The notes under the pieces were generated by a model. That model was not told the DNA's origin, did no database searches, and was given only the letters and a program-made list of their open reading frames with translations. Below, piece after piece: positions 16,241 to 40,820 of a DNA stretch of 64,000 nucleotides (positions are counted from its first letter, which is position 1; the number at the start of each line of letters is the position of its first letter). The position numbers and the translations under genes were made by a program. The DNA lies in the NCBI GenBank assembly GCA_012932295.1, contig JAAONU010000003.1, positions 32,536,361 to 32,600,360 on the forward strand. The letters are read 5' to 3'. The DNA comes from Cyclina sinensis (Eukaryota; Mollusca; Bivalvia; Venerida; Veneridae).

Positions 16241-19096
16241 ATGCCAGAAAAGATGAAGTTCAGCTCGACACATGGGCAAAACATTCTACTGACAAACAGT
16301 TCTACTACTGCAACCTGGTCCTCAAAGCTTTCAGGAGGCTGGGCTTTTTCTGTGGACCCTTTAAAACAAGGACAGACGGTTGTTGTACAGTTAGATGGAA
16401 GCGGTCACTGTGATCTTGGCTTCATTAAAGAGGATCCGAAATGTACCAACATGGTGAAACAAACACCTGCTTTCAAGCAGATGAATGAAATACGAATACA
16501 TAAGAGGACATGTGTCATACCGGTCACGCTTAATGACTCGGGAACAGAGGTATGTGTATGTCTGTAGAAACCTTTTGAATGCACAACTAAAGAGTTGATG
16601 CTAGGTTTAACAAAATATGTTTTAAATTTCTATCAGATCAATATACATGTATATTCTCTTCTAAAAAGAAAAACAGTAAAAAGACTTCCTGGTTTCAAAT
16701 TGGTTTAAATAACAACACTAATAATACATATTTATATAATAAATACTATTTTTCTATCTGTTTTAGGTCAGTTCAAGATTTCAGGACAAAACATTCGGAA
16801 AGTCAGTGGATAAAGACACGAAACTGTGGTTAACAATTTACATCAAATTTGGCAAGATGTCTGCCAGAATACTTTTAAATGGTATCCTTACGCTTTTTAT
16901 ATACATGTGCATTACTAGTTAGTGATAAAGTTTCGCGACATTACCTATTGTTCTCACGTTCTTTTATGAGCTATTTCAATTCATGGTTCGTCTCCGGTCA
17001 TTTTGATCAACAGCTAAAATGATCTACCCATCAACCAGCTAAGACACATCCTTAAATCACTTTGAAACATATACACAAAGGAGAAAAGATCGAAAGATTA
17101 GAACACTGGTCTTCCAATCAGGAGGTCGCTGGTTCGTATCCCACCAGCGGCGAGAGTCAATGACCTTTCGTATTCCATGCTTTTGACGCGAGTACTGATT
17201 GAACCCAGGAAGTAGTCATTAAAAAGGGGTTGATATAAGTGATTAAGTATGTAAATAAATCGGTTTAAACTAGACACATACCTGACTGAAGAGAAAACAA
17301 TTCAATGACTAGCCCCACTGCACTGAAAATTTGTCAAATTGTCTGACAGCTAGGAAACAACTGTTTTTAAGCAATCCAGCTGCTTGAATATTTGTTTGAT
17401 TTTTGATCCGGAAGACTCCTTGCAATTCGTTGCTTTGATCTGGCTGAGAACTATTTTTCCTTCTTTCCTCAACGGATTCGACAGATAACCCATAACAATA
17501 TATGTACGCTGAAAAGTAGATCAAATTTTGAAACAGCTCAATGACGGAAAGTTGAATCTCTTCAACATCTTTTAAATTCGTATAATGAGGAATGAATGAT
17601 CAGTAAGAACTACATATGTATGTCCAGCGCAAATCCTTGTAATAGATCGATAACCTTTTTTGCATATTATTTTAGTTTTGAATACATATGAAATTGTGTG
17701 TTGGTTTTTAAATAAAATATTTGTATGTGCTCCAAATTCAAATATGTGTAGTATATAGTAGTCTTTTATAATTGTATTGATATTGTCTATGAGTAACTGA
17801 GCGTTTCGCTAGCAGCTCTCAAAAGATTCTGGCAACCGGCTCAAAAGTTACAATGCATGTCCTGTACACACATTGCTCCCTAAGCTCTTTCCGTTACAAA
17901 AATATCAACTTACCTTCTTCTTCTTCTTCTCAGCATCAATGAGACAAAGCTTCGACATATTTTTTTTTCAATATAAAAATAATTATATTTTTCTCTTTAC
18001 AGGTTCACCAGACAATGCAATAATGTTTTCAGATAATCATGGCGCTAACATCAATCTGGAGGAGAACAACTTTGTAGCTACAACAGTACTGGCAAACCCT
18101 GCGGCAACATGCTTTGTGAAAGACAACCTTTCCGTAGGGGAAGAAATAGTTTTTCAATGTTCCCCTATTATTGAAGAAGACCGTGAACCTAGCAGATACA
18201 GTCTGAAGTTGCTTGTGTATGAAAGGAATCCAGAGAGTCTTAAAAAGGAATATAAGTTTCTTTTTGACTCTGGGTCTCACTTTGTTAAAGGATCTCCAGT
18301 AACAAGCATAGAGTTACTGGAAAAAGAAAACTGCAAGGGGGAAATAGCAGTTGCGCTGATAAATGAGACAACAGTTGGATACAGGGCGGCAACTCACAAA
18401 TTCAATGAACAGAGACTGAACGTTAAGGCAACAGAAGGTATATGGATCATACTAGAGTTATTTAGGACAACGGTGACAGCTGGCAGGAGGCTAGAAGAAT
18501 CTAAAGCATGTAATGTCGCTAATGTAATGGATTCTGTTCTTCGGGAACCATCAAATATTTACGCAGAAAATTCAATGGAACCAATTGCTTCCTTTATGGA
18601 AAAAACCGAAGTGAAACGGCAGTTCAGTGATTATATGGATGTGTCTGACGCTACACCACAGGAGGCTGATTTAAGAGAAAGGCTTTCGGTTCTAGAAAGA
18701 GGACAGGAACAACTTCAAGCGAGTGTTGAAAGGCTCACCTCTGTCCTTGCTTCTGGCAATACGCCAGCATGTAATTCAAATCAATCTCGTGCAATTACAG
18801 GAAACTCCTTATCATCGCTACTCCCGCTGCCTAAATCACGACAGGACAGAAGAATAAATGTGAGGCCAAAATTCACACTGCTTATTAAAGACTTACATTC
18901 TATGACTCTCTGCGACAAACTGTATGAAAAAGAAATAATTACACAAAATGAATATCATGAAATCACAGCCGATATGCCCTCACCGGATAGAAACAGAAAA
19001 TTGCTACTGACAATAGCGAGAAAGAATATAATGAAGTCTACCATGGATACGATCTTGGATGATACGGAACAAGGACATTTAAAAACAATGTTTTAA
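16241..19096 (+). CDS. NHR-NHR-coiled coil-CARD protein
   Basis: Exons 16241-16549, 16767-16881 (115 bp) and 18003-19096 join in phase and encode about 505 residues. Residues about 5-141 are a Neuralized (NHR) domain: FSSTHGQNILL, a GGWAFS segment, PLKQGQTVVVQLDGSGH and DLGFIKEDP fit the family. A second NHR starts in exon 3 (FSDNHGANINL, then LSVGEEIVFQC). A heptad-like stretch (LRERLSVLERGQEQLQASV) precedes the last 80 residues. These resemble a CARD/death fold: helices around TLLIKDLHSMTLCDKLYEKE, IITQNEYHEI, RKLLLTIARKNI and a final HLKTMF. NHR domains bind proteins or lipids and CARDs form homotypic assemblies, so an adaptor role is inferred. No RING is present, unlike classical Neuralized. 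The start gives the complete NHR; the longer open frame upstream of exon 3 is intron. Confidence 0.8.
17085..17245 (+). mobile_element. tRNA-derived SINE in intron 2 of the NHR-CARD gene
   Basis: GGAGGTCGCTGGTTCGTATC followed by CCACCAGCGG forms a T-arm-like hairpin with a B box, preceded by an anticodon-arm-like segment (GGTCTTCCAATCAGG). A body follows. It lacks the full cloverleaf of a tRNA gene. Confidence 0.5.
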
Positions 19097-20265
19097 AGTC
19101 ATAAGTGCTTCAGACTATAAAGAAGACAGACGGCTACGTCGCATTTTTTCTACAAAAGACGTGAGATTACGATACAGATGTCGCACCAAAACAAATTGAT
19201 AACATGGTAAAACATCCGCGGTTGACCAGTTTAAACAGGAAAATCATTATGATACGACGAAAGAAAAACTTTAACCATTTCAATATGCTTGACAGAAAAA
19301 AAGAAAGATTTTTTACTTGTGGTAATTGAAGATTACTTTCTCGACAAGAATTTTGTATTTCATGTAGAGTGCTGATATTTCTTTTATATAAGGACGATGC
19401 TTGATTTCAATTAATCTAAGACATCAAAGATGAAACACTTCTGTTTCAAAGGAGACAACATATTTTATATTATTTCTAAAGTTAATTGCAGCTTGCTTTG
19501 ACTAAGATATTTATGGTATTCAGTGTTTTGCCTGTATGTTCAAAGCATGCGCTGCAGAAATGGCTAAAGATCTAAGAAAATAGTATGCTAATATATATGT
19601 AATATGTGAGCTATTTGAAAATTGGAAGCCTTTTGTGTGTGCTATTACCGTATCATTTTAATAACCAATTGTTTTCGATTTGCATATTTCAAACAAAGGT
19701 GAATAGAACAACCAGAATAACCAGAGCAATGTGGGTTTAATTGTGTTTCAGAACATACCGCTCTCCATGATTTTTTTCTTTAAAACCTCAACGTTGTTGA
19801 TATGCAGACATTTATAACATTAATGTTTTCATAGCATCACCAGTTATTTTGTTAGTTTTGATTTACAGGTATGTGACTGTGTGTACAATCTTGCGTGTTT
19901 TTGTTCTTGTCTCCATTGACACTGCTCTCTCTTTAAAAAAACAAAACCAAAACAAAATATAGTTATATTTAAGGTGATTTTTCTGAAGACATTATTGATT
20001 ATATTTGCGTCTTTTAGTGATATGTTTTCATTAATACTTTATAAAATAATTATAATTTTAATACATGTACCTTAACGCTTATGCTGAATTGACATATGTG
20101 TACCAAATGATATGGCTGATTGAACGAAATGTAAATATTGCCTTATTTGGAGTTTTAGTCAGTGAGACATAGACATTATTGTTCTGTTGTTTTTGATTGT
20201 GTTAGCGTTGTATAGATTGTAATTTGTAATTTTGACTGACTTCTCGGGAATTAGATAAAGTTTAC
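19097..20265. other. 3' flank of the NHR-CARD gene, no other gene seen
   Basis: AT-rich sequence that probably includes the 3'UTR. No convincing exon is present. Confidence 0.4.
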
Positions 20266-21560
20266 CTGAAATTTTCGATGCGGTTAAGGAACTTAAAAAG
20301 GGAAATGCTCACGGCAGTGATTTTATAATGAATGAATATGTAATTGAGAGTGTGGATATTTTGGGCTCGCATATTTGTGATATGTGATTTTTTAGATTTT
20401 GGTTATTTTTTAGATAAATGGATGGAGGGTATAATTGTACCTTTACACATATAAGGAGATAAAAATGATGTTAATAATTATAAAGGTATTACTCTAGTAA
20501 GCTTTACTCTAAATTATTTACTATTATTCTTAATGAGCGTATTACATCATTTTTGGAGATGAAAATATCATATCTGATGCCCAGTTTGGCTGTGGATGCC
20601 TTTTTATACTATTGAGTATTGTGCAACATTATTTAAATGATAATAAAAGATTATATTGCGTATGTGTTGATTTAAAATGTTTTGATGCTATTTATAGAGA
20701 TGCATTATGAATGAAATTGTAGAAATTAGGATTACAAGGCAAATTATTGAGAATTATCAGGGACATGTAACAAAAAGTTGAGTATTACTCTTACTTCGAA
20801 TATGCTGTTGGCTTAAGACAAGGGGAAAAAATGTCTCCTGTACTTTTTTCTTTATTTGTAGAAGATCTGGAATTAATTTTTGCAGGATAATCTTAATTCC
20901 GGACTAAATATAGAAGAAATAATTTTACTTTTGTTGATATTTGCTGATGATATGGTAATATTAGCGAAAACCCTTCAAGAATTGCAAATGCATTTCAATG
21001 AATCGTATTAATACTTTAAAAGTTGGGGTTTAGAGGTAAATACTGATAGAACAAAAATGGTTGTATTAAGACAAAGAAGGGGTTTATTACTAATGAGTCT
21101 TCGTCATAGATTGGTATTGATATTGAAGTTGTAAATGATTTTAATTATCTAGGAACAGTTTTCAATTATAATGGCAACTTTACTCTGAATCAGGAATATA
21201 TTGCTCGTAAAGCAATAAAGGCGTTAAATATTTTACTTTTAAATTGTAAAAAATATCGTTTAAACCTAAGACTTTTTTTATTCTTTTGTTGGCTTAATTT
21301 TGAATTATTCGGCAAAAATATGGGACTTTACAAAATCAAAACAAATGGAAGGGTGTGACTTATTGCGGGATTTAAGTTCTGTCCGCGGATCTAAGATTTT
21401 TCTACGGACAGAGCTTGGTACGAGCAGATGATTAAATAAATCCATGTATTTATTGTATAAACTTAAGAATTATATAGAAATTTATGTTTCAACCAAAATT
21501 TTGAATAGATATCAGTTACAACATATATAAATTGAGATATTGACTAAAAATGTTCATTCT
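20266..21560 (+). pseudogene. decayed non-LTR retrotransposon (LINE) reverse transcriptase
   Basis: Reading across frames gives successive pieces of a LINE reverse transcriptase: AVKELKKGNAHGSD near 20280, a DNNYKGITLVS-like piece near 20468-20503, AQFGCG near 20580, VDLKCFDA near 20669-20692, GLRQGEKMSPVLFSLFVEDL near 20815-20874 and the catalytic FADDMVI at about 20941-20961. NDFNYLGTVFNYNG-like and later segments follow to about 21400. Stops and frameshifts break the frame repeatedly, and the endonuclease and gag-like parts are missing. It is a dead fragment in the same orientation as the preceding gene. Confidence 0.85.
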
Positions 21561-22847
21561 CTTTAAACTGACTTTAAATTCTGATCAATTAACTTTAAGT
21601 AATTTGTTAAAAAATGTTTTTCATTTGTTTATTTAATTGATTGCCATGTCTTGTATATTGTTAAATTGCATCTATGATCTTTTGTATATGATGATGTACT
21701 ATGTACAAATCAAGTGAAGTAAAAGTTCTGTTCTTTATGTATAGAAGAAATATAAGCCAATGAATTGTTGTTTTTACCCACAGCTAAAGAATGCTGTTTT
21801 TGCAGCCTAATTTAATTTTAATTGTGATTATATCCATCCAAGCTTAATTAAGTCGTTCCAAGACATCACTCAGTATGGAGCCAATCGCCTAAGATAAGAG
21901 CCAGTTATATTCACTGCTGGTATTTGACACAGAGTTAAGTTAAAGCTTAGGCGACTTTCACTTTAGTTGATAAAAAACCAGCTTGGAAGGAAATGCTTTA
22001 AATACTTTGCATAGCTGGTCCGACTCATGATGTTGATGTTGATTACGATAATTATGATAATAATACAATGATATTCCAGTATATAAACTGACAGCCTTTT
22101 TATAATGGCAAAAAATGTTTCAATGATGAAATTAGAAGGTTGTTTCTGGATTAACGATCACCATTTTACAGCACTAGGGCCCTTTACAGTTGGATGACAA
22201 CAAACATGGCCGAACTACAGGGGAAATTAAGTCGCACCATGTTCGAAAACGGATAGAGGTCCTTTCACTAGTAAGACATCAAATAAATATCACGGAAATA
22301 TACTTGTTGCTGCATATTTTTATTCATTCCGTTTTTCAAACTTGGCAGCATGAAGGAAAATTTATTTTTCATAGTCGAATGAAGTGACTGGATTAATATC
22401 TACTTGACCGAAAACTGTTGTATTATTTATATTTATATGGGATTTGAAAGATGTTTAAGCTGTGTTGTAATGCATACAGCGATCGTAAGCGTTCGTCTGA
22501 CGTATCGCATTGAAAAACGGTCGTAGATGTATTAAACAGAAGTAGATATTCAGTATTTAGCATGACATGTTACCTTAAAGAGCACTATGGAAAGAAAACA
22601 GTTTTTTCACTCAAATGAATAATATATAATGCTGTTACAGAAATGTCTACGTTTGTTGTATATAAACCCAATACTTTCTTTATAGCCGAACTCCCAACCA
22701 AACTTTTGCGCGGGTGTGCAATCCGCTTCATCAGAGGTACGATCCTATATTTTTCACCTACTCGGATTACCATCGATTCATCTTATGTTGCTGTACCAAA
22801 CCCTGTATATTTTCTTTTTTATTCTGCAGTATAGACATTGCACGAAC
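21561..22847. other. intergenic, no gene seen
   Basis: AT-rich sequence. The short frames at about 22190 and 22585-22946 lack domain or splice support, and part of the last is inside the adjacent transposon. Confidence 0.4.
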
Positions 22848-23121
22848 CAGGGGCGGATCCAGGATTTGAGGTTAGGGGGGGTGGGGGATGCAAAATGTTC
22901 AGCGTGTCGGTTTTCTACCTCATTTCAACGGTTGTGGTTATGCTAAAGTATACTGATTTGGCAATATCACATGGGCCTCTGATTATTTAATTCAATGTTG
23001 AACAATAAAGTCTACATTATTTAAAGACATATTCAAAATAGACCTACAATAACACTTATGGTCCGGGAATTTTAAGGGGGCGGGGGGCGCCGGGTGCGCC
23101 CCCATCTGGATCCGCTAACTA
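22848..23121. mobile_element. short non-autonomous DNA transposon, hAT-type
   Basis: The left end CAGGGGCGGATCCAGGAT and the right end ATCTGGATCCGCTAACTA are imperfect inverted repeats, with G-rich left and right subterminal stretches. The flanks GCACGAAC (22840-22847) and GTGCGAAC (23122-23129) match at six of eight bases, consistent with an aged 8-bp target duplication as hAT elements make. It is 274 bp long with no coding capacity. Confidence 0.8.
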
Positions 23122-23329
23122 GTGCGAACTGAAGGTCAAATTTAAAGGGATTCACAGGCAAATGAATGCCCAAGAAATTAAGTCTGATATTATTTGTTCA
23201 AATCACGTTCAATATGAAGAACTTTTAATTGCCAGTATGTGTGTAGTGAAATGCGGGCTCGAACGTAAATATTTGAACGTTCTTTAACAGAAAGCAAAAT
23301 GTGAACGAAATCACCGAGTTATTTTCAAA

Positions 23330-23402
23330 TAGGTCACGTGACAAAAACAACCAATCGTCGTTTCTCTTGGGTTGCTTTTTGCCGTAGATCACGTGACAGG
23401 TA
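23330..23402. promoter_or_regulatory. paired TCACGTGA palindromes
   Basis: The E-box palindrome TCACGTGA occurs twice within about 60 bp, near 23334 and 23389. In animals this is the consensus for bHLH-ZIP factors such as USF/MITF/TFEB. No gene start is recognised beside it, so a regulatory role is only a possibility. Confidence 0.3.
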
Positions 23403-23779
23403 CTTCAACCGTCCAATCATTCACTGCGAAATTTAGCGCGAAATCTAAATTTTCTATCAAGACCACCCGGTTTTTCATTTAAAAATAGGAAATCTTTGTT
23501 ACTGGGACTGCTCATTGTATTTATTTCGTTTATATTTATAGTATTTTGATAGAAGAAATAAAACCTTAGGTTAATACCAGATTTAACCAAAGTGGAATAT
23601 CTATTACTACATTAACAAATAAGCCTCTGTAAAATTAATACTGTTTAATTCTGTGAAAATACCAAGTTATCAAAGAGACAACAACAGTATACAATGTCTT
23701 TAGGAAACTGAGCTCTCAGACCATAAATCTGAGCTTTTTTATACTAAAGGTTCAACCCAACTAAAAATAAGTGATAGAA

Positions 23780-23990
23780 ATGGTTGATAACCAAACGAGT
23801 TGTGATCGCAACCAAAATTGGTTGTTGTTGCAACCAGAAGTGGTTGTTCCAACCCAAAAATATTGGTTGAATTACAAAAACGGTTGTTATTTACAAGCAT
23901 ATTTCTAGACCTCTGAAAAATGAGTTGTGATTGCAACCAAAATTGGTTGTTGTTGCAACCAGAAGTGGTAGTCTCAATAACTCGCCTTCA
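23780..23990. repeat. GGTTG-rich dispersed repeat, copy 1
   Basis: Units with CAACCAAAATTGGTTGTTGT and CCAGAAGTGGTTG are palindromic and occur twice here. The stretch at about 23843-23928 is nearly identical to 26022-26106. Confidence 0.75.
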
Positions 23991-23999
23991 AAAGCGGAC

Positions 24000-26021
24000 C
24001 CATTTATTAATCTGATATTTTGCGTTGTCCGCCTTTAGCGTCTCAACCAGAAAAGGTCAAAACTGTGGTGGAAATCGGCAAGAGTGAAGATTTTCAGAAA
24101 TCGGGTTTTATCAGTTGTTTCCAGGAAATCTATAACTTACATTGTTGACTTATTGTTTTAAAACATATTTGCCATCAAAATAAATAGTAAAACATTATAT
24201 TTTGTGAAAAAATCTCTGTTAAACCCATTACCGTTTCATCCCCGTCTCTCAGGTTTACATCGCCATGCGGGGCGGAGCTTCCTAACATGTTAACCAATGA
24301 AAATAATATCTTCTTTCAAAACAAATTTGGACAGTAAGGGAGGGTGTACGCGGAAAATGTATTAGAAGCGTGTATTGTTACGTTTGACAAAAAGCATAAG
24401 CTCAGACAAGTAACCTCGAGAAACGGCCAACTGTGACAAAACTTTTAATATTTGTACTTGTTTATTATGTAACTGTTGCATACACTGTGCAGCTGCTTGT
24501 ATATGTACTGGAAAAATCCAACCTAGAGATCGTTTCTTGTTTTAAAAAAAACGACGGTAAAAAAACTTGATTAAAAACGACATGAGCTCAGACAAGATAT
24601 TCCGCGCAACAGCCGATGTATTTGTAATATTTGTACTTGCTTTCTATGTTATTGTTTAATATTAATTGTGTGCAGCACAGGAAAATGCATATTCAAATAA
24701 ACATTAAAGTTATAATACTGCCCAAAATCGTAATAAAAAATAAACCTTATAAGAACAGTTCGTTTAAAAACATCAACTCTCAATATGTATGATTATTTTT
24801 CGCGGATGGCAAGATATGTTTGCGATACAAAAGGATGAAATTATCAAATTATTTAATGACCCGCCAACCATTAATTCACTTTGGAAATGCCGAACACACT
24901 TCGTCCATTTCCGTAAATCAAGCCGTTAATATCACCTGATCAAATTTGAATGAGCGATATAAACAACAATAGCGGATCAACCAAAACAAACTGGGAAACA
25001 TGGTCGCACGTTTCTTACAAATTCTGAGAGAAAGAGGCAAAAATGCAAAAGAAAATACTTGAATAAGTTCCATCTACTCGATATAGACATCATGATCGAC
25101 TTTCTATTTATATGCCTGCCCGGTTTATCAGAGTTGACAAGATGTACCCTACCCACAACATTCAATATCATCCGAGACCTGTTTCTAAAAATAACTTACG
25201 TATGGAAATTAGCATCTTCCGACTAAACTCGGGCGCATTCGAGGAATGGCGGTGAAGGTATAGAAAGCGAAAGTTGACATTTTTATATCCGTTGACATCC
25301 GCGAAGCCGGTCACGAAATTAGTGATATTAAGCAGGTTTTTTTTTCATTTTCGCAAAGTCTGTATGCATTAATGTGATTTTTTTCGAAACTGGCGATAAC
25401 GTTATATTTTTGTTCCTGGGTATTATTATAACTTAAGAATTGATCTGTTGTATTAAAGATATAGCAAGGTATTTGCGAGTTGGCGAATTCCATTTTTTTA
25501 AATATTTTTGACCCAAAAGACAGTACTACATATGGCGGAAACAATTTGAATTATTCTGTATTAATGTTACATAAATTGACAAAAATCCAACAATGTTGTC
25601 TACAATGCGTGAAACAGCGTTAAACGTTTACGCGCAGTACAGGTTATCATATAGTAGCGCCGTGTTTACATCAGCTGTCGATATCCAATATGGTATAGCT
25701 AGGTAGATTTTAGCGTGTTAAATCAGTTTGAAAGTTTAACTGCCAGTGTGAACGATTGCGTGGATGGATTTTCTTCATAGATGTCTCATCTGATGCAGAA
25801 AATGACAAGCTTTCTGTACATGTACAAATTATGCCGGTAAAACCCTATTTTATAGCTATAAATCGTGCCCAACGGATTTCGTTGGGCATTACATACGCAA
25901 AGAAGAAAACTTTTCCACCACAGTTTTGGTCTTTTCTGGTTTGTACTCTGAAGGGGATATTGACCTATCATAAAATAGCACAATATACACCTTTTAGAGT
26001 ACAATTATTTGGACTACCAGA
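24000..26021. other. sequence between the two direct repeat copies
   Basis: No recognisable gene. The open frames near 24977, 25311 and 25756 show no domain. The segment may be an insertion or part of a duplicated block bounded by the repeat copies. Confidence 0.35.
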
Positions 26022-26106
26022 ACTGGTTGTTCCAACCCAAAAAATATTGGTTGAATTACAAAAACGGTTGTTATTTACAAGCAGATTTCTAGACCTCTGA
26101 AAAATG
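26022..26106. repeat. GGTTG-rich dispersed repeat, copy 2
   Basis: About 84 bp, from GGTTGTTCCAACCC to GACCTCTGAAAAATG, is almost identical to the copy 2.2 kb upstream and in the same orientation. The open frame at 25756-26100 runs into this repeat. Confidence 0.8.
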
Positions 26107-27081
26107 AAAATGGAGTCTTAAACATCTACAAGGAATGATATTAGCATAATTTTAAACAAGTTTTGTAACTTACACACCTGAAATTACATAATATAATTTT
26201 GACTGTAGTATTCGTCGATAAATAAACTTTACCCGGTCGTCCCTAGCAACATACAGGAAGCTGCACATGATGGCTGCCTACTGTGTTAAGTGTACACATG
26301 TTTACTGATAAAAGTTGCTCTAAACGGAATAAATACATGGATTTAAACAAAGTTACTTGGCAGAAAGATGCTTAAATATAAGTTCTAAGGATGCACAAGG
26401 ATTTATCAATTTGCAAACGGATTAAAGTGATAAAATTATTCATGAAACCTGAAAATGTACATGTATCATGAGAGATAAACACTTCACAAACTGTCAAGTG
26501 GAATGCCATTTGAGTTTAAATCTTACAGAATGTCACTGGCTTATAGCCTGTATAAATGAGTTTGTGGTTTTAGTTTTCAAAGTGAAACCCATCTCATTGT
26601 ACATTTTATGGCTGGTAAATATCAACACAGTCAAGATAAACAAGTTAAATGCAGTGATATGTAAAGTTCATATAAAGTTCTAAGGAAAGATGTTGAGTAC
26701 TGTTTGTTCATCTTTGTTACATTTACTTGCATTTTCAAATCACTACAATACTTCAGATAAAAGAAAAAGAAATTCGCGTAAAAGCGTATGATGCCGGTTT
26801 AAGGCAAGATACACGATTCGATTCTTGTTCCATTTTTTTTAAAAATTCTCCTACATATTGCATCCTACTAATTTGGTAAAATACATGACATAGTCTGAAC
26901 GTATTTTAACAATGAGCAAAATGAAATGTTTTTTATTACAGTATGAAAACAATTAAGACAACATAACAAACATCTAATAGTTGATCGCTCACCACATATA
27001 CAGTTTGCAAGAAAACATACTCTTATATTGTAATAGCGAAAACCGTTTCATCTCTTGATCTTACACAATTCAACAAATCCT
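26107..27081. other. intergenic, no gene seen
   Basis: AT-rich sequence downstream of the minus-strand CARD gene that would include its 3'UTR. Confidence 0.35.
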
Positions 27082-28849
27082 TCAGAAATCTGTCTGAGCA
27101 GCAGTTGACACAAACTTGAGTTGTTTTGGAAACAACAGCTCCAGCAAATGTTGATCCCCAGCTTTTGTAAGAACAGCTTCTATTTTGTGTTTTTTAACTC
27201 TCCTGTATCGGAGCGTCTTGAGGAAGTACCTGTTTGCGACTCTTAATTCACCCTTATCGCATAATCTTTGAATATCTTCCATTTCATCTTCACTGATTAA
27301 ATCAGCCTCATAAAAATAGTCCGCTAGGTTGTTTGCCCGAATGATTTTTAGTAATTCAGTCCTATGAGTTTTGCTATCAACAAGTTCATGGTTTAGTTCT
27401 TCATCTTTCGAAAGCATCGATACTCCGATTGTTGGGGATGAGCATTCCTGTTTCTTGAAATTCTTTGCTTCAGCAAATATGACAGGATTTTCTTGTGTTG
27501 ATCCAGACACTTCTACCTCTCTATCCTCGTCGATGTCATATCTGTAAACTGTAAAGGACTCTTTCTCATCATCGATGCCAGATCTGTCATCAAGAACAGC
27601 CTTTTTCCCAGCATGCATGTAGAATCTGTTATCTGCAACAGTATCTTTATCATTATCAAAGTCAGACCTGTTATCTGTAGTGGCCTCTTTCTTATTATCA
27701 ATGGCATACTCATCATCTGTAGCTGCCTCTTTCATTTCATCGATGTTAGACTTGCAACCTCTAATTATCTTGTCATCATTAGCGCTGTCATCAAGGTCAA
27801 TGAATCTGCCATTTTGCTTATCCTGGCCTGACCAGGAAAGATCTGTTTTCAACCCTAGGAGGCTATCTGCCATGTTTTCATTTTTAGCAATTTCACATGT
27901 CTGGTCAAGTAAAACTTTACCTGGATGAACAAGAAATAACATTTTTAAATTAAACTTCAGAAGTGTCTATTTTAGAGATATATAAGATTGGTCTATTTCA
28001 GATTAGTTATGGGTCAAAATCGACGGGGTATACGTACATAAGCTAAGTTGATACATCTCTTTGTATCCCTTTTTGGCAAATCACTTCACTCTATGTATGT
28101 GCACGAGCTTATGAATCAAACAAGTGATCGTTTGTTTTAAGCATTGTATTTTAGGTCATCTATCAATAACCTACCGATTGCTTACATATGGACAGTACTG
28201 CATTGAAATGTTTACTTGTGGAAATGACTAAAATAATGAAATTACCATTTTGTGTAAAGGAGGTTGTAAATTGTCCTTCGAATAGTGTTAGTTTCACTGG
28301 AGTTTCTTTGTTTGATTCTACGCCAAATGCATAATCTTCGTCGTTTAATGTCGAAGTGATCTTAAAAACAAATTAAATAATTTGTTCGAATGTAAAATAA
28401 TGTTCAGACCTGTCTTCTTATTTATTTCTGAAAATCAGATAAACAGTGACATCAAATTTAAAGGCACATTTTAAAGAAAAAGAAATGATAAAATAGAATA
28501 CAATATTAATATTTTATCGATAAATGATCAGGCAGTCACGATATTTCTTCATTTAAAGAGAAGTCAGTACCTGATTCAGACCATTCAAATATAACTTTAT
28601 AGTTATATTAGAGGTGTGGCGGAATGTTCCGAGGTGAAGTGGTTTCCAATCCCTGTTGCCATTACATATCGACACCATGAAGACACCGGTTCCTTTGATG
28701 TTTATATGTAACGTGCAATCAACTAGCATCATGTGGTGTAAATTACAACCACTTTCAATGAAGGAAACGTCCGAGGAAGAGGAGAGACGTTCGGATATGA
28801 GGTCTCCATCCTCAGTGCTTGTTAGGGAGATCAGTAAGTCATCTCCCAT
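27082..28849 (-). CDS. NHR-like/14-residue repeat/CARD protein (copy B)
   Basis: Exons in transcript order are 28849-28571, 28360-28246 (115 bp) and 27920-27082, joining in phase to about 410 residues. The N-terminal 130 residues form a beta-rich domain (LHINIKGTGVFMVSICNGN, later a TTSFTQNG end) that aligns by layout with the NHR of the gene at 16241 but is much diverged. The linker is acidic, with five 14-residue units in tandem, each opening with KE or KD/KK (27523-27732). The last 90 residues are CARD-like: THRTELLKIIRANNLADYFY, DLISEDEMEDIQ, VANRYFLKTLRYRRV and a closing HLLELLFPK. The closest relative in the window is copy C at 38632, in opposite orientation. The open frame extending to 27942 begins in the intron. 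The leaders before the two start codons are also alike (GATGATAAAG.G.CAAG). Confidence 0.8.
27523..27732 (-). repeat. five 42-bp units coding a 14-residue acidic repeat
   Basis: The units start KEAATDD, KEATTDN, KDTVADN, KKAVLDD and KESFTVY. They are exactly 14 residues long and end in acidic or Asn-rich residues. They form the flexible linker between the NHR-like and CARD-like parts. Confidence 0.8.
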
Positions 28850-29690: not shown

Positions 29691-29748
29691 TACATGAACG
29701 TATATTATTTTGTGCAATAACAGTAGCAGGTTTCCATAATGCACCTTG

Positions 29749-30110
29749 CTAAATGCGAACTGGTTCACAGACACTCAACGACTTAAATGGTATGACCTTT
29801 CTGTCATAGTGTTTCTTTTGGGTCTGCTTATGTACAGTTAATTTGTTATTAACTTTCAGAGGATCTGGAGTTTTGAGCTTCAATTTTTCAGCTGTAATAA
29901 GTAGAAATAAGCTAATTTTCCTTCCAAACAACAATTCAGCAGGCATATAGCCTGAACTTAGTGGGGTTGCACGATACTCAAGCAAAGCAATGACTGGATC
30001 TGTAGAAGTACTTTTTGCTTTTTTGAAAAGTTTCTTGCAAATTTTAACATGAGTCTCTACTAACCCATTGCTTTGGCTATACAAAGAAGAAGAGATTGAA
30101 CGCACAAAAT
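29749..30110 (-). pseudogene. Ty3/gypsy integrase C-terminal fragment
   Basis: The minus-strand frame carries SQSNGLVETHVKICKKLFKK, ALLEYRATPLSSG and PAELLFGRKI, the hallmark of the end of the integrase core of Ty3/gypsy elements, followed by a KKHYDRKV tail. The catalytic first half is missing. Its orientation is opposite to the neighbouring RT fragment, so at least two insertions or an inversion are involved. Confidence 0.85.
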
Positions 30111-30630
30111 CTCATGTTTTAGCAAAGTCTTTGAACTGCTAGGCTTTGTAATACGAAGCACCATCAGAAATAGACTAAAAAATGCCTTTTCTTAGAATTT
30201 TGAGATACCACAGTGATCATTATGCAAAATTTCAACATTTTATGCCTCAGTGTACAAGGAAATAGTATTTTGTGACCTTTCATGATCATAACATCTTTAA
30301 CTGTCTACTCATCTCTATCGTTCATGTAACCAAGTAACTGTGACAGGCAATCATGGCGCTTTTAAGGTCATCCTGAGAGAACTAGAACTATCGCTGAATG
30401 CGTTTCATACCCCCACCAATGTCCTTGACAGAAGACGACATGGAAAGGTGGTTAAGGGAATAACTTTAGTGGCACAACTACATATACATAAAAAGAAATT
30501 ATCTCTGGTGAAAAAAACAAACAAATTGTACAGGTAATAGTATAAATATATATTGTCAAATCATGTTCGAAACAGTTACAAATAACCCTTTCATTTTCGT
30601 GAATATCTGTTCTAGTTTCAGAAACATTTA
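30111..30630. other. probable transposon debris
   Basis: No gene recognised. It lies between the integrase fragment and the next repeat block. Confidence 0.3.
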
Positions 30631-30639
30631 AGTATTAAT

Positions 30640-32090
30640 GGTTATATCAGAACATTTTCTAAGCCTAAAAGGGGCATAACTTGTGTCATAATTCAATGGA
30701 ATTGTAGAATTTTCGTCATCTGAGCTTGCTTGTAACCATTCATATAAATTTTAAGTTTCAAGTAAATATCTTTTCTGGTTTAAGAAGTATTATAGTAAAT
30801 AAATTTAAAGACATAAAAATGGGCTTAACTTTGTCAAAATACAATACAAAGTTATCCCCCCCACTTTTTTTTAGATATGAAACTTGACCTGCATATCTTA
30901 CTTGCGACACTTCGTATATATTTGAAGTTTCAAATGATTATCTGTTCTAGTTTTAGAAACATTCAAGTACATGTGAATATTTCAGAACATTTTCTAAGTC
31001 AATTTTTGACCTGCAAGTGTGGCCTTAACCTTAAGCTGGCACAAGGGTAAGATGGGTTCTGCACATTGCCCAGTTGGGGTGAACATTTGAGTCAAGTTTG
31101 AAGAAAATCCTTCCATTAGTATAGAATTTATAGAGCGGACACAACATATTGTCTAGTATTGATAGTAAGTAAATTAAAAGACTTAAAAAGGGGCATAACT
31201 TTGTCAAAATGCAATACAGAGTTATGAAACTTGACCTGCATATCTTACTTGTAATACCTCATATATCTTTTAAGTTTCAAGCAAATACCTGTGCTAGTTT
31301 CAGAAATATTCAAGTACATGTTAAAATTTAAGAACATTTTCTAAGTCAATTTTGACCTTTCACACATTGACCTTAAGCCGGCACAAAGGTAACATGGGTT
31401 CTGCACATAACCTTGTTGAGTTGAACATTTGAGTAAAGTTTGAAGAAAATTCTTCCATTCGTATAGGATTTATAGAGCGGACACGACATATTGTCTAATA
31501 TTTGATTGTATGTAAATTTGAAGACGTAAAAAGGGGCATAACTTTGTCAAAATACAATACAGAGTTATGAAACTTGACCTGCATATCCTAATTGTGACAC
31601 TTCATATATATTTTAAGTTTCAAGCAAATACATTTTCTAGTTTCAGAAATATTCAAATACATGTTAAAATTTAAGAATATTTTCTAAGTCAATTTTTGAC
31701 CTTCAAGTGTGACCTTGACCTTAAGCTGGCAAAAGGGTAGCATGGGTTCTGCACATCCCCTTGTTGAGGTGAACATTTGAGCCAAGATCAAAGAAAATCT
31801 TTCAATTAGTGTAGGACTTACAGAGTGGACACGACATAATGTCTAACTGTTTGATATTTGACCTTCAACTGTGACCTTGACCTTGAGCTGACACATGGGC
31901 AACATGAGTTCTGCACATCCCCTTGTTGAGGTGAACATTTCAGCCAAGTTTGAAGAAAATCCTTCAGTTGGTATAGGATTTATAGAGCGGACACGATAAT
32001 GACGGACCGACCGACCGACGGACGCGACAAAGCGAATCCATTATAGCCCCCCCCCCCACCCCACATTTTGTGGTGGGGGTATAATAACGT
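30640..32090. repeat. about 345-bp direct repeats (three to four copies) ending in an inverted terminus
   Basis: AAAGGGGCATAACTTTGTCA-like starts recur at about 30666 and 30812 (partial), 31190 and 31530. Each is followed by GACCTGCATATC, CTAAGTCAATTTTTGACC, GACCTTGACCTTAAGC, GGGTTCTGCACAT and TTTATAGAGCGGACACGA. The end at 32010-32085 has GACGGACCGACCGACCGACG and a hairpin of C-run, ACATTTTGTGG and G-run. Repeats of this wording are, from memory, abundant in bivalve genomes. Confidence 0.8.
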
Positions 32091-32519
32091 CCATAGAAAG
32101 CAGTAAATTATCACCTTTAAGGGTGTAAGGCCTGATTTCATTGAACTTCATGTCACTTACTGGGGTATGTTTAATAACAAAATGGACATGCAAATCAGCA
32201 GCTTTTGATAGTTCGGGTATGAATTTGACAGAAATTTCCTAGACAGAGTATCTGCTACAGACATTTACTTGCTAGGCTTGTGGACTAATGTAAAATCATA
32301 ACGTTGCAACTGCAGCATCATGCACTGTAACAACACACACACGCACGCGCACCATTTATGTTGGACTGCACACATACACATTTCACATTAATTAGTAATA
32401 ATTATTATCGTAATGAAGATAGATATCCAGGTCTGAGATAAAGAAAAACATGTATATAAAAAAATAAAACACATCTTGCATTGGCTAAAAGAGAATAAAC
32501 AATTGAAGTTGTAATTGTA
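32091..32519. other. spacer with a short CA/CG run
   Basis: ACACACACACGCACGCGCAC near 32330 is a short microsatellite. No gene recognised. Confidence 0.4.
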
Positions 32520-33165
32520 ACAATAAGTACTTACACAAACAACAAGTTATACAGATTCACGTTACAATGGTTACTGTTCTACTTACACTAACAACAAGCA
32601 CTGCAGAATTACATAGCAGTGATTACTTTTCTACTTATTACGATGATTACTGTTCTACTTATACAAACATGAAGTACTGCAGATACACATTACAGTGGTT
32701 AATGTTCTACTTACACAAACATATGAAGTACTAAAGATTCACATTACAGTGGTTACTGTTCTACTTACACAAATATGAAGTACTACAGATTCACATTACA
32801 GTGATAACTATTCTACTTACACAAACACCAAGTACTGCAGATTCACATTACAGTGATTACTGTTCAACTTACACAAACAACAAGTACTATAGATTCACAT
32901 TACAGTAGTTACTGTTCGACTTACACTTACAACAAATACTACAGATTCACGTTACAGGGATTACTGATCTACTTACACAAACAACAAATACTGTAGATTC
33001 ACATTACAGGGATTACTTATCTACTTACACAAACAACAAGTACTGCAGATTCACATTACAGTGATTACTTTCTACTTACACTAACAACAAGTACTACAGA
33101 TTCACATTACAGTGGTTACTGCTCTACTTACACAAACATGAAGTACTAGCCTACAGATTTACAGC
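32520..33165. repeat. about 56-60-bp tandem repeat, about 11 copies
   Basis: Each unit has CAGATTCACATTACAGTGG, TTACTGTTCTACTTACACAA and ACAACAAGTACTA-like parts. Units vary in length by a few bases. Confidence 0.85.
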
Positions 33166-33926
33166 TAAGTCGTTACACAGAAAAAGTGAAACAGAAAGTA
33201 AATTAAAATTTTATTATATTTTAGTTTTTTTTCTTTTGTTATTTCTTTTTATCAGCATTGAAATAGTTATAAAAACGGGCGGTTATGCTATAAAAAGTAA
33301 ATAAAAGTACCTGTATATCCAAAACGTGCTAATTTTTCTGTAATTTTGTCATTTACAAAATGCCTTCCGGGTGTTTAAATTACCCACCCTATAAATAGAA
33401 CCAAATCAACGAGGATGTTTGTTTTTTAGAGCGAAAGTTAAAATGTCTTTATTTTTTATTTTAAGTAAAGAGTTCAGATGCGCGTCAATAGTCCTTATTG
33501 TTTTTTACTCTAGGCCATGTTTCCTTTCAACAAAACCATTCTTGCAAGCTAGAGAGTATCATTGGTTCCCAGCATCTCATCTATCGTATTTTATAAGCGG
33601 GGTATGTGTTTAGGCTCTTTCGAAAGTTTACTGGTCAACATTTTTTTCGATTATTCAACGCTTCAAACAATCTTTGATATTGATTAACAAATATTACATA
33701 AAATGCAAAAGAGGCGAAAGTACTGCGTGATAACCTAGCAAATCCGTTGAAGTATTTTGAAAAATAGCGACCTTGATACTAAGAAAATAGGATACTTGTA
33801 AACAGTAACATCAGTTAGATAGAATCATTACAACTGACAAGTCAGAGCTATAACAGTTAAAATTCGGAGACAGATTGGCGTTGTACGAAAACAAAAGCTT
33901 GTAACAGCATGAAAATACTAAACTTT
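33166..33926. other. spacer, no gene seen
   Basis: AT-rich sequence between the satellite and the LTR element. The open frame at 33419 has no recognisable domain. Confidence 0.35.
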
Positions 33927-34256
33927 TGTCACGGGTGCTGTCGGTAGAGCTTCGCCGACGAATATGTATCGCGTGTCAACGTATTTGTTTTGTGAAATGG
34001 GTAGAGGGTTCTACCTTCAGGACCGCCAAAGGACAGCAAGAAAGTAGTAATATATTGTAGATATATTATATATTTTATTTCGATACAACAATATCTGACT
34101 GCTTTGCAGTAAGTAGCGATGGCAGGTGCCACATATAGCATATCAATTACATATAATGAAGACAACAAATAAACAAAGCATATTTCTATGGCTTGAAAAT
34201 GTTTCCTTTTGCAAAAGAAATATTACATAATTTACAAAATGCATTTTAAGACATCG
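33927..34256 (-). repeat. 3' LTR of the gypsy element
   Basis: Near-identical over its length to 35742-36072, with small changes such as GTCGGTAGAGC versus GTTGGTAGAGC. The far boundary is approximate because similarity runs a few bases into AT-rich flank. Confidence 0.75.
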
Positions 34257-34301
34257 TTTTATATTTAGAGTACAGTGAATAACTAAAATATGAAACTAAC
34301 C

Positions 34302-34405
34302 TGCAAGAAAGTAATAATATATCGTAGATTATATTAATATATATCTTATTTCGATACAACAAATATTTGACTGCTTTGCAGTAAATAGCGATGGCAAGTG
34401 CAACA
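34302..34405 (-). repeat. extra partial LTR copy
   Basis: GCAAGAAAGTAATAATATAT through GATGGCAAGTGCAAC repeats the central part of the LTR, in the same orientation and just inside the 3' LTR. It suggests a nested or tandem LTR rearrangement. Confidence 0.7.
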
Positions 34406-34489
34406 AACCATTTCAAAATCAGTAAAGTCATTGTTGTATTGTTACGGGTGACAGGTTAGTGGAATGTTAGTGAACAAATAACGGAATTA

Positions 34490-35152
34490 TGTAATTTTGT
34501 CAATACAGAATCGGATGGTTCCATCTTTTATCCGTACTATGACTACATTAGACGACCACGGACTGTTCGACTTTCTTATGGCATCGTTTTTGGGCATTCC
34601 TGTAGATGTTCCTTGACCTCGTTGAAAAGTGCAGGTGGGAAACGTCATAAGGTTCCTTAAATGGCGTTTCGTCTGTTAGGTCAATGCTGTGTTTTACAGC
34701 CGATGTATGACCTAGATCGGTAGATTTTTTTTTGGAAATATCGACTTCCATTTTTAAAACAGAACGTAAACTTCTGCTTTTTGTTCTTTTGTTAGATTTG
34801 CCTCCTCCAAAACTACTCCGTATGTATTTATTTCTTTTTCAGGTTTTGTATTGTTTTTATCATTTTTATTTGGTTTATGTATATTTTATATTCTTTTTCA
34901 GGTGCTGTTTGCTGCTGAAGGATGATTGCGTATTCCGATGACTCAGAGTAACCTTTGAGTTTCATTTTTTTCAGATAAGGAATCACTTTTGTTGTTAAAA
35001 GGCGTTGCTTTCTGATGACATATTGGTGCTGCGCGTAAGATGTACACTTCTTGTAGCTGACAAAGATTCGACTTGGCGGGTATACTTATTACTTTGGCTG
35101 ACAAATTGCATATCTTGACCGGAATTCTGGCATTCTTTCCTGGGTTGTGCAA
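34490..35152 (-). pseudogene. pol fragment of the gypsy element (truncated before the RT core)
   Basis: The piece at 35152-34943 (IPVKICNLSAKVISIPAKSN) resembles the linker after the protease. The piece at 34751-34548 has TDLGHTSAVKHSIDLTDETP, and in another frame just downstream IVRIKDGTIRFCI, the first conserved block of Ty3/gypsy RT. Frames are broken and the rest of pol is absent. Confidence 0.7.
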
Positions 35153-35727
35153 ACTTACAACTCTTGGACAAACAGCTGCGTGACTCTCAAGTGTTTTCCA
35201 TAGTTTCAGTTACCGCTGCTTCCGTATCCTTTTGTTTTCTCACAAATCCTGTTACAGTTTTAACCTACATTGGATGTAGGGAATGAGTGACTCCATATGT
35301 AAAATTATTACACTTATCACTAAATTCACATATCAAAATAAGAATAAGAAGAAAGAAACACACACAAGTACTATGTTAACACATACATACTAATTTCCAC
35401 AATTAATTGAAATGTCAAATGCATGCTCCAGTAAACTGATGTACGGTGACGAAGAACTTCTGTCGATCCTTGAAAATATAATGTTTTTAGGCCTATTTGA
35501 ATTATGTCGGCGTAATGTAGATGTTCAAGATCTTGAAAAGAAAGTAGGTGTCCTCGTGCATGTGTTGTGGTAAACAAATATTTACCTGTATAAAGGTAAG
35601 GTGGATACAATATCCAACAGAAAGATCGATGACTTATGACGTCACGTTCATTTGTTAAAATCCCAATTTTTAAATTGAAGATTAATTTTAGATATATATG
35701 TCCTCTAGTTTCTGGCCCAAAATTCTT

Positions 35728-35739
35728 GGTTGGGCGCCA
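35728..35739 (-). other. primer-binding site of the gypsy element
   Basis: The minus-strand sequence TGGCGCCCAACC directly after the LTR begins with the TGG that pairs with a tRNA CCA end. The cognate tRNA is not assigned. Confidence 0.7.
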
Positions 35740-35741
35740 GT

Positions 35742-36072
35742 TGTCACGGGTGCTGTTGGTAGAGCTTCGCCAACGACTGTGTATCGCGTGTCAACGTATT
35801 GTATTTGTTTTGTGAAATGGGCAGAGGGTTCTACCTTCCGGACCGCCAGGGATTGCAAGAAAGTAATAATATATCGTAGATATATTATATATTTTATTTC
35901 GATACAACAATATCTGATTGCTTTGCAGTAAGTAGCGATGGCGTCACATATATAAATATTAATTACATATAATGAAGACAACAAATAAACAAAGCATATT
36001 TCAATGACTTGAAAATGTTTGCTTTTACAAAAGAAATATTACATAATTCACAAAATGCATTTTAAGGCATCA
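35742..36072 (-). repeat. 5' LTR of the gypsy element
   Basis: Read on the minus strand it starts TGATGCC and ends GTGACA, i.e. TG..CA, with the primer-binding site following two bases later. An AT microsatellite abuts its outer edge (about 36083-36098). Confidence 0.75.
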
Positions 36073-36299
36073 TTTTATATTATATATATATATATATGAC
36101 AAAGTCTCTACATTTATAATAAATGATTATCCAGCAATAAAATGTACATCATGAACCATATTTATTAAGAAATAGTATTCATGCATTCAATTTAGTTATT
36201 TTACTTCTAATATTTGACTGATTCCTCGACATCGGTGTTGATTTGTTCAATACCTTTCAGTTGTATATGAAATAAACAGGCTTTCAATTTTGGGGTATG

Positions 36300-37000
36300 C
36301 CCTTTCAATGAAATAAACTTAGTGCAACAAGAGCAGTCAGAACGACGCTAATGCCCCTCATGTGCGCATCAGAATCCTCAAGATCAGTCAAGAATGCCGA
36401 GTCAGTAATGTGAGCCTAAAACAACTAGATGAAGAGTTAACTACTCATAAAGCTATTCCTCTGTTCTCTCATTCCGATTGGAAATAACTTAAGGCGTACA
36501 GTCCCCCTATGAACTTGACATTTGAAGACAGTGCTCATGAAATCAACAGGGTTTTCTGTACATGCCCGACAATGCCGTAAAGGGATCTTGAAGGTCAAGG
36601 AAGCAGCTTATACAGCTATTGATAGGAACTCCAGTCTAAGCATGGAGCCATATAAGCTTGAGCTTTAACTATGTGGACCTAAAATAACAAAAGGTTTCGT
36701 ATAATCATTGTGCAAAACCATCCTAGAATTATCCTGTAAAGTTTGGAGGTCCTTGTTCTTGAGTTAGTCACTGGAAATCATTTTCAAAGTTTGGGTCCCT
36801 GTAAGCTAAACATTTCTCATAGCCAAAAGGAAAATAAGGGTCATCTACTTAATATGCCCAATCATGAGATAAATGTTGATTGTCCTGGGAGCAGTTGTTC
36901 TTGTGTCATTGATCGGAAATCGTTTTTGAAGTGCTTGCCTCTGTGATCTTGAACTTTGACCCTGTAGACCCTAAAAAGACGAGGCTCTTCGAAGGAAGGC
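36300..37000. repeat. diverged interspersed repeat
   Basis: Segments such as AAGTTTGGAGGTCC, CACTGGAAATCATTTTCAAAG and GATCTTGAACTTTGACC recur in diverged form at 45865-45990 and 44100-44140. The wording fits a repeat family spread through this genome. Confidence 0.45.
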
Positions 37001-38600
37001 AAAATAAAGTTTTAAGTTCGAGATACATGTCGATACCTTTTCCTTTCTGAAGCTAGAGAATGTTGGTTTAAAGAGATTACTTCATTCAATATAATTCATC
37101 TACGAAATGGCACTGCTCCTTCTGTTCTTTTCCTTGTCACATTTAAGGTGCAAAATTGATTGCTGTCATTCGGCGAGAAATATTCAAGAATGTCAACAGT
37201 TGATCCAAGAAATGTTTGAAGTCCTAGTAAGTGCTTGTTCGATTCTACAAGAATAAGAAATGACTTTAAAAAGCATCAACAAAATATCCGGTATAACTCA
37301 TCTAAGCAAAATTGCTCTAAACATCAGATGCTGTGTCATGGAAATCTAAAATCAGAAATGCATGTTAAAGAAAAACAGTAATTATAACAGTACTATAGCA
37401 GAATTTGAAAGACAATCAAAAACAGTATTTTAAGTTCGTATGTGTAGACTGCAAGACAACAAGAACTATCAGTGTTTATGACAAAGATATAGTAAGACAA
37501 TTTTGATAATTAACAATAAGTTCTTCGATCCCAAATGTGTAACTTGTACACAATGAGTAATGGGTTCTCTGGAAAGTATCACGTCACACATAAAAACTTT
37601 GTTCTTTGTCGTTCATAGAAATTGCTCTTTATTCCTGTTTGTCTGTGCAAATAATTTGACGGGAAGGTAGACAGCAGACAACAAGCGCACCCGATATATG
37701 CCTAATCGAACAAGTTCAGACTTGGCACTATAAAATATTCAATGAATTAAGTCAATTCAAAATCATTCACCAAAATCCACCGACAGGAAAGGCAGGGAGA
37801 GTTTACTTTCTACCCAAGCTTTCTTGTCTTGGACCTTATCCTGAAGTTATGCCGTACTGAAACTACACAGACGGTGTTTACATATTGATAATATTGATAA
37901 TGTATTAGGAACTGAGTGGACTGAATTGAAAAATATATAAAGAACACATGCATTTTACGCACTTTCTTAGTGTTAGAGACAGTGAGCGTGAAGAATTCAC
38001 TATGACTGATTTTTGGTAGAGTTATACATATTATTTTGTCTAAAGATATTGACATTTCGGATAAGGACGGTTAAAACGGGTTTTTTTAATTAAAACAAAG
38101 ACAAAGGTTCTTTTGTTCACCAGATTTTGTTCAGTCTTGTGTATCACGTAACATTACGTTATTCTATTTTAGGCACAGAATTCCAATGGAAGAATTTTTT
38201 TTGTTATGTTTAAAACAAATTTCTGTCAGGTATGTATGGTTTAAGTAGCAATAACATCACTACATATCTGTTATTTATTCTTTTATAGATATTATTATAC
38301 CATAACTGATTCTTACGTCGTTGATTCGAATGAAAATTAGATTAAATTCCTTACTTTCTATTTCAGGTTGCCCTGTTTGACAACATTTTCAGTAGGGTAA
38401 AGGTTTAGTGTAGTGTTTGGTCCTGTCAAATTACAGGAAAAAATACAAGCCCGAGTAATGAAAATAATGTACTTGCAATGCAGTAGATAATCGTAGTAGT
38501 TATTCTTGAAATAAAAATTCAGACCTTTCTCTGAAATATTCTTTCACAGATGAACGACATTTTTAAATGTTAAAGAACATCTTTCTGTTTTGCAGAATCG
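37001..38600. other. intergenic, no gene seen
   Basis: AT-rich sequence upstream of the next CARD gene. No coding signal is recognised. TCTGTTTTGCAG at 38584-38595 may be a 5'UTR intron acceptor. Confidence 0.4.
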
Positions 38601-38631
38601 ATTCACAATTTTTCGATGATAAAGCGTCAAG

Positions 38632-40820
38632 ATGGATGGCGATCAATGTATCTCCCTCACAAGTATGGAGGATGGAACTCTCGAGTCGGAACGTGTTTAC
38701 TTTTCTTCAGATGTTTCGTCAAGTAAGAGTGGTTGTGATTTATACCGCAGTCTCCTGATAGATAGCACGTTGCATATTTACGTCGAAGGGACCGGGCTCT
38801 TTATGGTGTCGATATGTATTGACAATACAGATTTGAGACCAGTGTATCTCTTCAACCTACGCCACTTTTCTAGTGTAGATGTAAAGTTGTATTTAAACAC
38901 TTTTACACGTCAGGTATGGGAATCTTTTGAAAGCATCATTATCTAAAAAGTGCTTGATTTTATAACGTATTAATCGTTAATTTGGTCTATTGATTAAACA
39001 ATCGTTGTTCAACTATATTTTTATGAGTCTAGCAAGGATAGAAAGTGAAAGTATTTATCAGATTTTTTTTTCAAATATGAAAAACCCAATTTGATTAAAA
39101 TTAAAATAACAAAGTAAAACTGTTTCCATGCAAATATGATAGTTTTTAAATATCAGGTTTAAAGAACAATTCTTTGTCCACAAAGGAAAGAATGCTGGAT
39201 CTCACTGTTTCAGGTTATGACAACTTATGACAACGGCGCATATAATGTTGACGTGAATCCAAAAAATGAAATCCGTGCAAGGCTTACTATATTTAATGGG
39301 AACTTTACCACAACTTTTGCACAAAACGGTACTTTTGATTACTTATCTTTTACAAACAGATACTTGCAAAATGTTTTGAAATTATATGCCAGATATACAA
39401 TGGAAAAACCTAATAAATATTTTTGCATTCAGTGCCTATACCTTATCAAATCCTATAAAAGTAATTCAATAAGAATCTAAAAATAACTATTGCAAAGACA
39501 TTTAAGCAGAGATATGTGCATTCTTATTAGATAGAGTTAAACAAATATCATTTGCAATATGCAATAAGTTTAAGTCTTGTAAATTAAACAGGTAAAATTT
39601 TGGTCAAGCAAACATGTGAAATTGCTGGAGAGGAAAATGCAGCAAATACCCTCAAGAAGATGAGACGCGACACTCCTCACACGACAGTGAGTGACAAGAA
39701 GATGATACCCGACACTCCTCACGAGACAGTGAGTGACAAGAAGATGATACCCGACACTCCTCACAAGACAGTGAGTGACAAGAAGATGATACCCGACACT
39801 CCTCACAAGACAGTGAGTGACAAGAAGATGATACCCGACACTCCTCACAAGACAGTGAGTGACAAGAAGATGATACACGACACTCCTCACAAGACAGTGA
39901 GTGACAAGAAGATGAGACCCGACACTCATCACAAGACAGTGAGTGACAGGAAGATGATACCCGACACTCCTCACAAGACAGTGAGTGCCAATAAAGGAAT
40001 ATTTCAGAGAAAAGACAGAAATAACCAAAGCAAGGCAAAGCGTGGATGCAAAACCGCCTATAATGATGTGAAAAAGATCAAACTTTCACCTCAACCTAAT
40101 GAATATATATCTGCATCGAACGCCGAGATATCCAAAGAGAATGTGGATGAAAAAGCTTATGATATGAAGACTGAGGATAAAAACAAAGCGTATCTGAATC
40201 AACCGCAGTACTTCTATTACGGTTGTGACAAAGAATATGTTGACGATCTTGGTGATGACGATGATGATGATGATTGTGGTAGTGGTGTTAATGACGACGA
40301 CAACAACAACAACGACGATGCTGCTGCTGCTGCTGATGATGACGACGACGACGATGATGATGATGATAGTAGTGGTGGTGATGATGAAGATAACAATGAT
40401 GAGACGGAGCACAAGATTGATAGTTCTGAAACTCTTAAGAAAGAGATAAAGCACTCTTCCTGCTTACAAGTGGAGATTGACATATTTAATGCTGCATGCG
40501 AATTAATATTCGAAATGTTTGATGATACCGAAAGAGAAAATGAAAAAGTTGAATTGGTTGACATAAAATCAAACAGGACTGAGTTATTGACTATCATGGA
40601 GCCGGACAGGTTAGCGGACTACTTTTTTGAAGCTGAATTAATAAGCGAATGCAACATGATGGTCATACACGGGCATTGCAGAAAAGGCGATTACACTGAA
40701 GCTAACAGGTACTTATTACAAGAGCTTCGCAACAGGCGAGTACAAAAATACCAAGTAGATGCCGTTCTAATCAAATCAGAAGATCGGCATTTGTTGGAGC
40801 TGATGTTTCCAAAACACTAG
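38632..40820 (+). CDS. NHR-like/14-residue repeat/acidic/CARD protein (copy C)
   Basis: Exons 38632-38913, 39214-39328 (115 bp) and 39592-40820 join in phase to about 541 residues. The N-terminal domain pairs with copy B residue by residue (ISLTSMEDG versus ISLTSTEDG; IYVEGTGLFMVSICIDN versus INIKGTGVFMVSICNGN). Exon 2 ends TTTFAQNG in place of TTSFTQNG. Exon 3 opens with a shared KQTCEIAGEEN motif, then eight tandem 14-residue units (DTPHKTVSDKKMIP), a basic stretch, and a very acidic Asp/Asn/Ala region from simple repeats. The C-terminus is CARD-like: SNRTELLTIMEPDRLADYFF, ELISECNMMVIHG, ANRYLLQELRNRRV and HLLELMFPKH. The Asp run and basic stretch suggest a flexible or nucleic-acid/chromatin-facing linker, but this is inference. 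The exon structure equals that of copy B and of the 16241 gene. Confidence 0.8.
39661..39998 (+). repeat. eight 42-bp units coding a 14-residue repeat
   Basis: Units read DTPHxTVSDKKMIP with few changes (DTHH, HDTPH, DRKMI, and a last unit ending SANKGI). Nucleotide identity between units is very high, so the array is recently expanded or homogenised. Confidence 0.9.
40233..40400 (+). repeat. GAT/GAC trinucleotide-rich acidic tract
   Basis: Runs of GATGATGAC, GACAACAACAAC and GCTGCTGCTGCT code Asp, Asn and Ala runs within copy C. It is likely length-polymorphic. Long minus-strand frames here are shadows. Confidence 0.85.

Follow-up and report, generated by a model that had tools for sequence, protein, structure and literature searches.

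A Neuralized-CARD protein and two further genes with CARD-like ends on a common exon plan in the clam Cyclina sinensis

Three genes with a common exon plan

A window of 64,000 nucleotides from the bivalve Cyclina sinensis (GenBank assembly GCA_012932295.1, contig JAAONU010000003.1, positions 32,536,361 to 32,600,360; the whole stretch that was analysed) contains three genes, designated hereafter genes 1 to 3 (Table 1), the first of which encodes a genuine Neuralized-CARD protein with an N-terminal NHR, the domain by which Neuralized proteins bind, and a C-terminal CARD, a module through which proteins dock in cell death and immunity. Splicing the coding exons by hand resulted in open proteins of 505, 410 and 541 amino acids for genes 1, 2 and 3, respectively, with all six introns of the GT-AG type. 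Each gene has a first coding exon with a phase 0 end, a second of exactly 115 bp with a phase 1 end and a single large last exon, confirming the shared exon blueprint proposed in an earlier sequence-only reading of this DNA. Intron 2 splits a glycine codon directly preceded by asparagine in all three genes. The exon-2 peptides align without gaps over 39 residues, and the scores of gene 1 against gene 2 and against gene 3 were reached by none of 2000 shuffles and none of 10,516 control 39-mers translated from stop-free sequence in the rest of the window. This control is mild, stop-free translations from the window being mostly non-coding, and the margin between genes 1 and 3 was narrow (score 20, against 19 for the best control 39-mer).

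The exon joins of gene 1 were supported by a continuous open reading frame (ORF) in an outside assembly (P0001; 97% identity, 99% of the query covered, contig of 2597 bases), beginning at residue 5 of the gene 1 model, and those of gene 2 by another (P0006; 99% identity, 100% covered, contig of 2443 bases). Because both contigs lack the genomic introns, RNA is their most likely source. No outside ORF supporting the joins of gene 3 was found, gene 3 itself never having served as a search query, and the gene 3 model is based on its resemblance to gene 2. That the joins are artefacts of the gene models is highly improbable: the missing transcript support for gene 3, and the absence of AATAAA or ATTAAA from the roughly 1.2 kb that follow the stop codon of gene 1, speak for it, but continuous ORFs span three exons for gene 1 (P0001 and the ortholog P0002, see below) and gene 2 (P0006), and for these two genes the sequences already contradict it.

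Table 1. Coding exons of the three genes (positions in the window)
Feature	Position	Strand	Size and basis
Gene 1 coding exon 1, larger part of NHR repeat 1	16241..16549	+	309 bp, phase 0 end; Pfam Neuralized at residues 7-103; GT-AG intron
Gene 1 coding exon 2, final part of NHR repeat 1	16767..16881	+	115 bp; exon-2 alignment; residues 20-141 of ortholog P0002 on 4kg0
Gene 1 last exon: weak NHR repeat 2 (about residues 147-305), probable coiled coil (about 361-395), CARD (about 423-505)	18003..19096	+	1094 bp; Pfam, ortholog model, marginal heptad test
Gene 2 coding exon 1, predicted beta domain	28571..28849	-	279 bp
Gene 2 coding exon 2	28246..28360	-	115 bp; aligns without gaps to exon 2 of gene 1
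Gene 2 last exon: acidic low-confidence linker and CARD-like end	27082..27920	-	839 bp
Gene 3 coding exon 1, a paralog of exon 1 of gene 2	38632..38913	+	282 bp; BLASTP of genes 2 and 3, 38% over 245 columns
Gene 3 coding exon 2	39214..39328	+	115 bp; exon-2 alignment
Gene 3 last exon: in-frame 42-bp tandem repeat, Asp-rich linker, CARD-like end	39592..40820	+	1229 bp; 57% identity to gene 2 over 89 residues

Domain architecture of gene 1 and its relatives

The gene 1 polypeptide matched Pfam Neuralized (PF07177) with 43.3 bits (E=4.6e-11; cut-off 23.3) and Pfam CARD with 28.8 bits (E=1.3e-6; cut-off 23.9). The segment following the first repeat, when excised, matched Neuralized with 17.7 bits (E=0.0034, profile positions 1-139 of 149) and its Mercenaria counterpart matched the same family with 16.5 bits (E=0.008), both below the cut-off; profile comparison of the two repeats of gene 1 gave a 46-column match at a probability of 34. 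These segments were read as a second NHR because they lie directly behind a sure one, as tandem repeats do. Beyond them, a structure model of the ortholog predicts a 35-residue helix with a predicted local distance difference test (pLDDT) score of about 57-70 in its core; its heptad pattern was equalled by 22 of 5000 shuffles in P0002 and by 266 of 5000 in gene 1, where the test is marginal. The layout of gene 1 is best described as NHR-NHR-(probable coiled coil)-CARD, with the second NHR weak; neither that repeat nor the coiled coil had figured in the sequence-only reading. No RING and no catalytic domain were identified among the Pfam matches of gene 1, and all three proteins lacked the RING C-x2-C pattern as well as RING and caspase domain (CASc) matches in Pfam. 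Between P0001 and gene 1, all 13 amino-acid differences lie in the last exon (18003-19096) at residue 183 or beyond, with none in residues 5-182; one falls in NHR repeat 2, nine in the linker and three in the CARD.

A search for homologs, which scored the 7995 candidates with most words in common and reaches only close relatives, identified the Mercenaria mercenaria protein LOC123536965 (P0002), from another genome and with no function stated in its record. It shares the gene 1 layout over its full length (60% identity) and carries both Pfam domains, and in its structure model residues 20-141 match the fold of Drosophila Neuralized NHR1 (4kg0). NHR and CARD occur together in two full-length relatives of gene 1, and CARD scored above the Pfam cut-off in all five (P0001-P0005), three of which (P0003-P0005) extend only over the region that follows NHR1. 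Used as a region query, the NHR part of P0002 retrieved only P0001 and P0002 itself among 241 candidates. Sequence searches of the PDB with gene 1 alone returned weak unrelated matches only (best E=0.44); a profile of the ortholog set ranked unrelated chains first (best E=0.071), with weak CARD matches to cIAP1 (0.22) and CARD8 (0.34), and a two-sequence NHR1 profile gave two unrelated weak matches.

Genes 2 and 3

Genes 2 and 3 are paralogs with CARD-like ends (Table 1). Pfam CARD matched gene 2 with 18.6 bits in the whole protein and 21.8 bits when excised, in both cases below the cut-off of 23.9, and did not match gene 3. However, the end of gene 2 matched the CARD of gene 1 by profile comparison, and a structure model of an allele, differing at 3 of 410 residues, shows a predicted CARD-like fold. 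A six-helix death fold matching CARDs is thus predicted both for gene 2 and for the Mercenaria ortholog of gene 1, in line with the earlier proposal; for gene 3 the assignment follows from its identity to gene 2.

The N-terminal domain was not recognised as NHR in either gene by Pfam or by profile comparison. None of three N-terminal sequences of this type matched Neuralized, the only Pfam family at E<=10 being RENR_N in one member (E=0.08), and a PDB search with their profile gave no matches; NHR and SPRY chains are absent from the fold list of the gene 2 model, which excludes nothing. Clear N-terminal resemblance to gene 1 was found in exon 2 only. These results support in part the claim that all three genes combine an NHR or NHR-like domain with a CARD: it holds for gene 1, by Pfam, two full-length relatives and the fold of the Mercenaria ortholog, whereas in genes 2 and 3 neither domain exceeded its cut-off. 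For this pair an NHR-CARD architecture is likely but unproven.

The last exon of gene 3 contains about eight copies of the 42-bp tandem repeat (39653-39991), translated in frame as a 14-residue linker repeat. A protein 77% identical to gene 2 (P0007) has extra acidic repeat units in its linker that gene 2 (27082-27920) lacks. Elsewhere in the window, a single-exon ORF of 395 amino acids (42138-43325, plus strand) encodes thioredoxin-like domains (Pfam Thioredoxin, 2.2e-10) behind what we take to be a signal peptide, and an ORF at 29749-30111 (minus strand), with no Pfam match at E<=0.01, is presumably a fragment of a retroelement integrase. Long tandem arrays are located at 3345-4336 (70 bp units), 30876-31856 (343 bp), 32637-33148 (52 bp) and 56366-57049 (45 bp).

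Proposed function and comparison with known systems

With neither a RING nor a catalytic domain identified, the most fitting interpretation of gene 1 is that of a sensor-adaptor, and from what is known of its domains its most likely role is that of a ligand sensor nucleating CARD signalling. The CARD would then be the effector end in place of the RING of a Neuralized-like protein. The NHR repeats may bind ligand in the manner of SPRY-like domains and the coiled coil may gather copies, upon which clustered CARDs would nucleate an assembly recruiting a CARD-bearing partner, for example, a caspase-2-like initiator caspase, possibly in an immune role. In genes 2 and 3 a repeat-bearing acidic linker would connect the CARD to a diverged N-terminal domain, perhaps of NHR descent. 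That gene 1 is such a clustering NHR-NHR-(probable coiled coil)-CARD sensor-adaptor, and genes 2 and 3 a diverged pair from the same ancestor, we hold with somewhat better than even confidence.

It is rather doubtful that genes 2 and 3 form a separate family, with a beta domain other than NHR and only the CARD in common with gene 1. The 115-bp exon would then be coincidental, against which stand the equal exon count, phases and exact exon length across the three genes and the gapless 39-residue match that neither shuffles nor control 39-mers equalled. The products of all three genes might instead be brakes, that is, CARD decoys that, like ARC or ICEBERG, cap or sequester CARD partners, while the N-terminal domain determines where they are located. 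Fold matches cannot tell activators from inhibitors, but the probable coiled coil of gene 1 speaks for clustering, and we consider inhibition unlikely. More improbable still is that gene 1 is a RING-less competitor of the E3 ligase in the Neuralized Notch-ligand pathway, its CARD merely an oligomerisation knob. Tandem NHR repeats with a weak second one, as in Neuralized, and the missing RING match would suit such a competitor; however, nothing was found linking gene 1 to Notch ligands, and Pfam CARD is present in all five relatives. Extending the sensor-adaptor interpretation, we tentatively suggest, as a possibility short of even likelihood, a bivalve family of Neuralized-type sensors signalling via CARDs rather than ubiquitin ligation. 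It would comprise the conserved gene 1 and a local pair, genes 2 and 3, in which sensor and linker would have diverged so rapidly, as in a pathogen-driven receptor family, that common origin is still visible only in one exon and the CARD.

Neuralized and NEURL proteins combine NHR repeats with a RING. Gene 1 resembles them in its N-terminal NHR and in the fold match of its ortholog to Drosophila NHR1, but has a C-terminal CARD and no RING match. Clade I of the anthozoan NHR-caspases has NHR fused to a caspase domain, and one Nematostella member is strongly upregulated at 24 hpi (PMC11251625); like gene 1, these proteins tie NHR directly to cell-death machinery, but by a caspase domain, whereas gene 1 has a CARD and no CASc match. 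Neuralized/TIR_2 proteins of Crassostrea gigas and Strigamia maritima have been compared to an anemone gene that encodes kinase, death and TIR domains (PMC5094078). There, too, a bivalve signalling protein of the TIR/death type includes a Neuralized domain, although with TIR_2 and without mention of a CARD. The Mercenaria transcript 'neuralized pats1', which the focal-response table of an infection data set (PMC4769524) marks as Down, is likewise a clam transcript whose name refers to a neuralized domain, but its annotation is small-GTPase signalling, suggestive of a Roco-type protein.

A literature search, mostly outside subscription journals and covering part of the larger result lists, found no paper naming an NHR-CARD protein. 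The combination, which the sequence-only reading had proposed as new, is nevertheless new only narrowly, as judged from these sources: both domains are visible in the precomputed Pfam annotation of the public Mercenaria record, and NHR-caspase and Neuralized-TIR_2 or death-type proteins are in print (PMC11251625; PMC5094078). If NHR is indeed wired to CARD, recognition would lead directly to the assembly of death folds in animals that lack adaptive immunity. Gene 1 and its Mercenaria ortholog are a defined pair for testing and, together with the anthozoan NHR-caspases, gene 1 suggests that NHR and cell-death machinery have been combined on more than one occasion.
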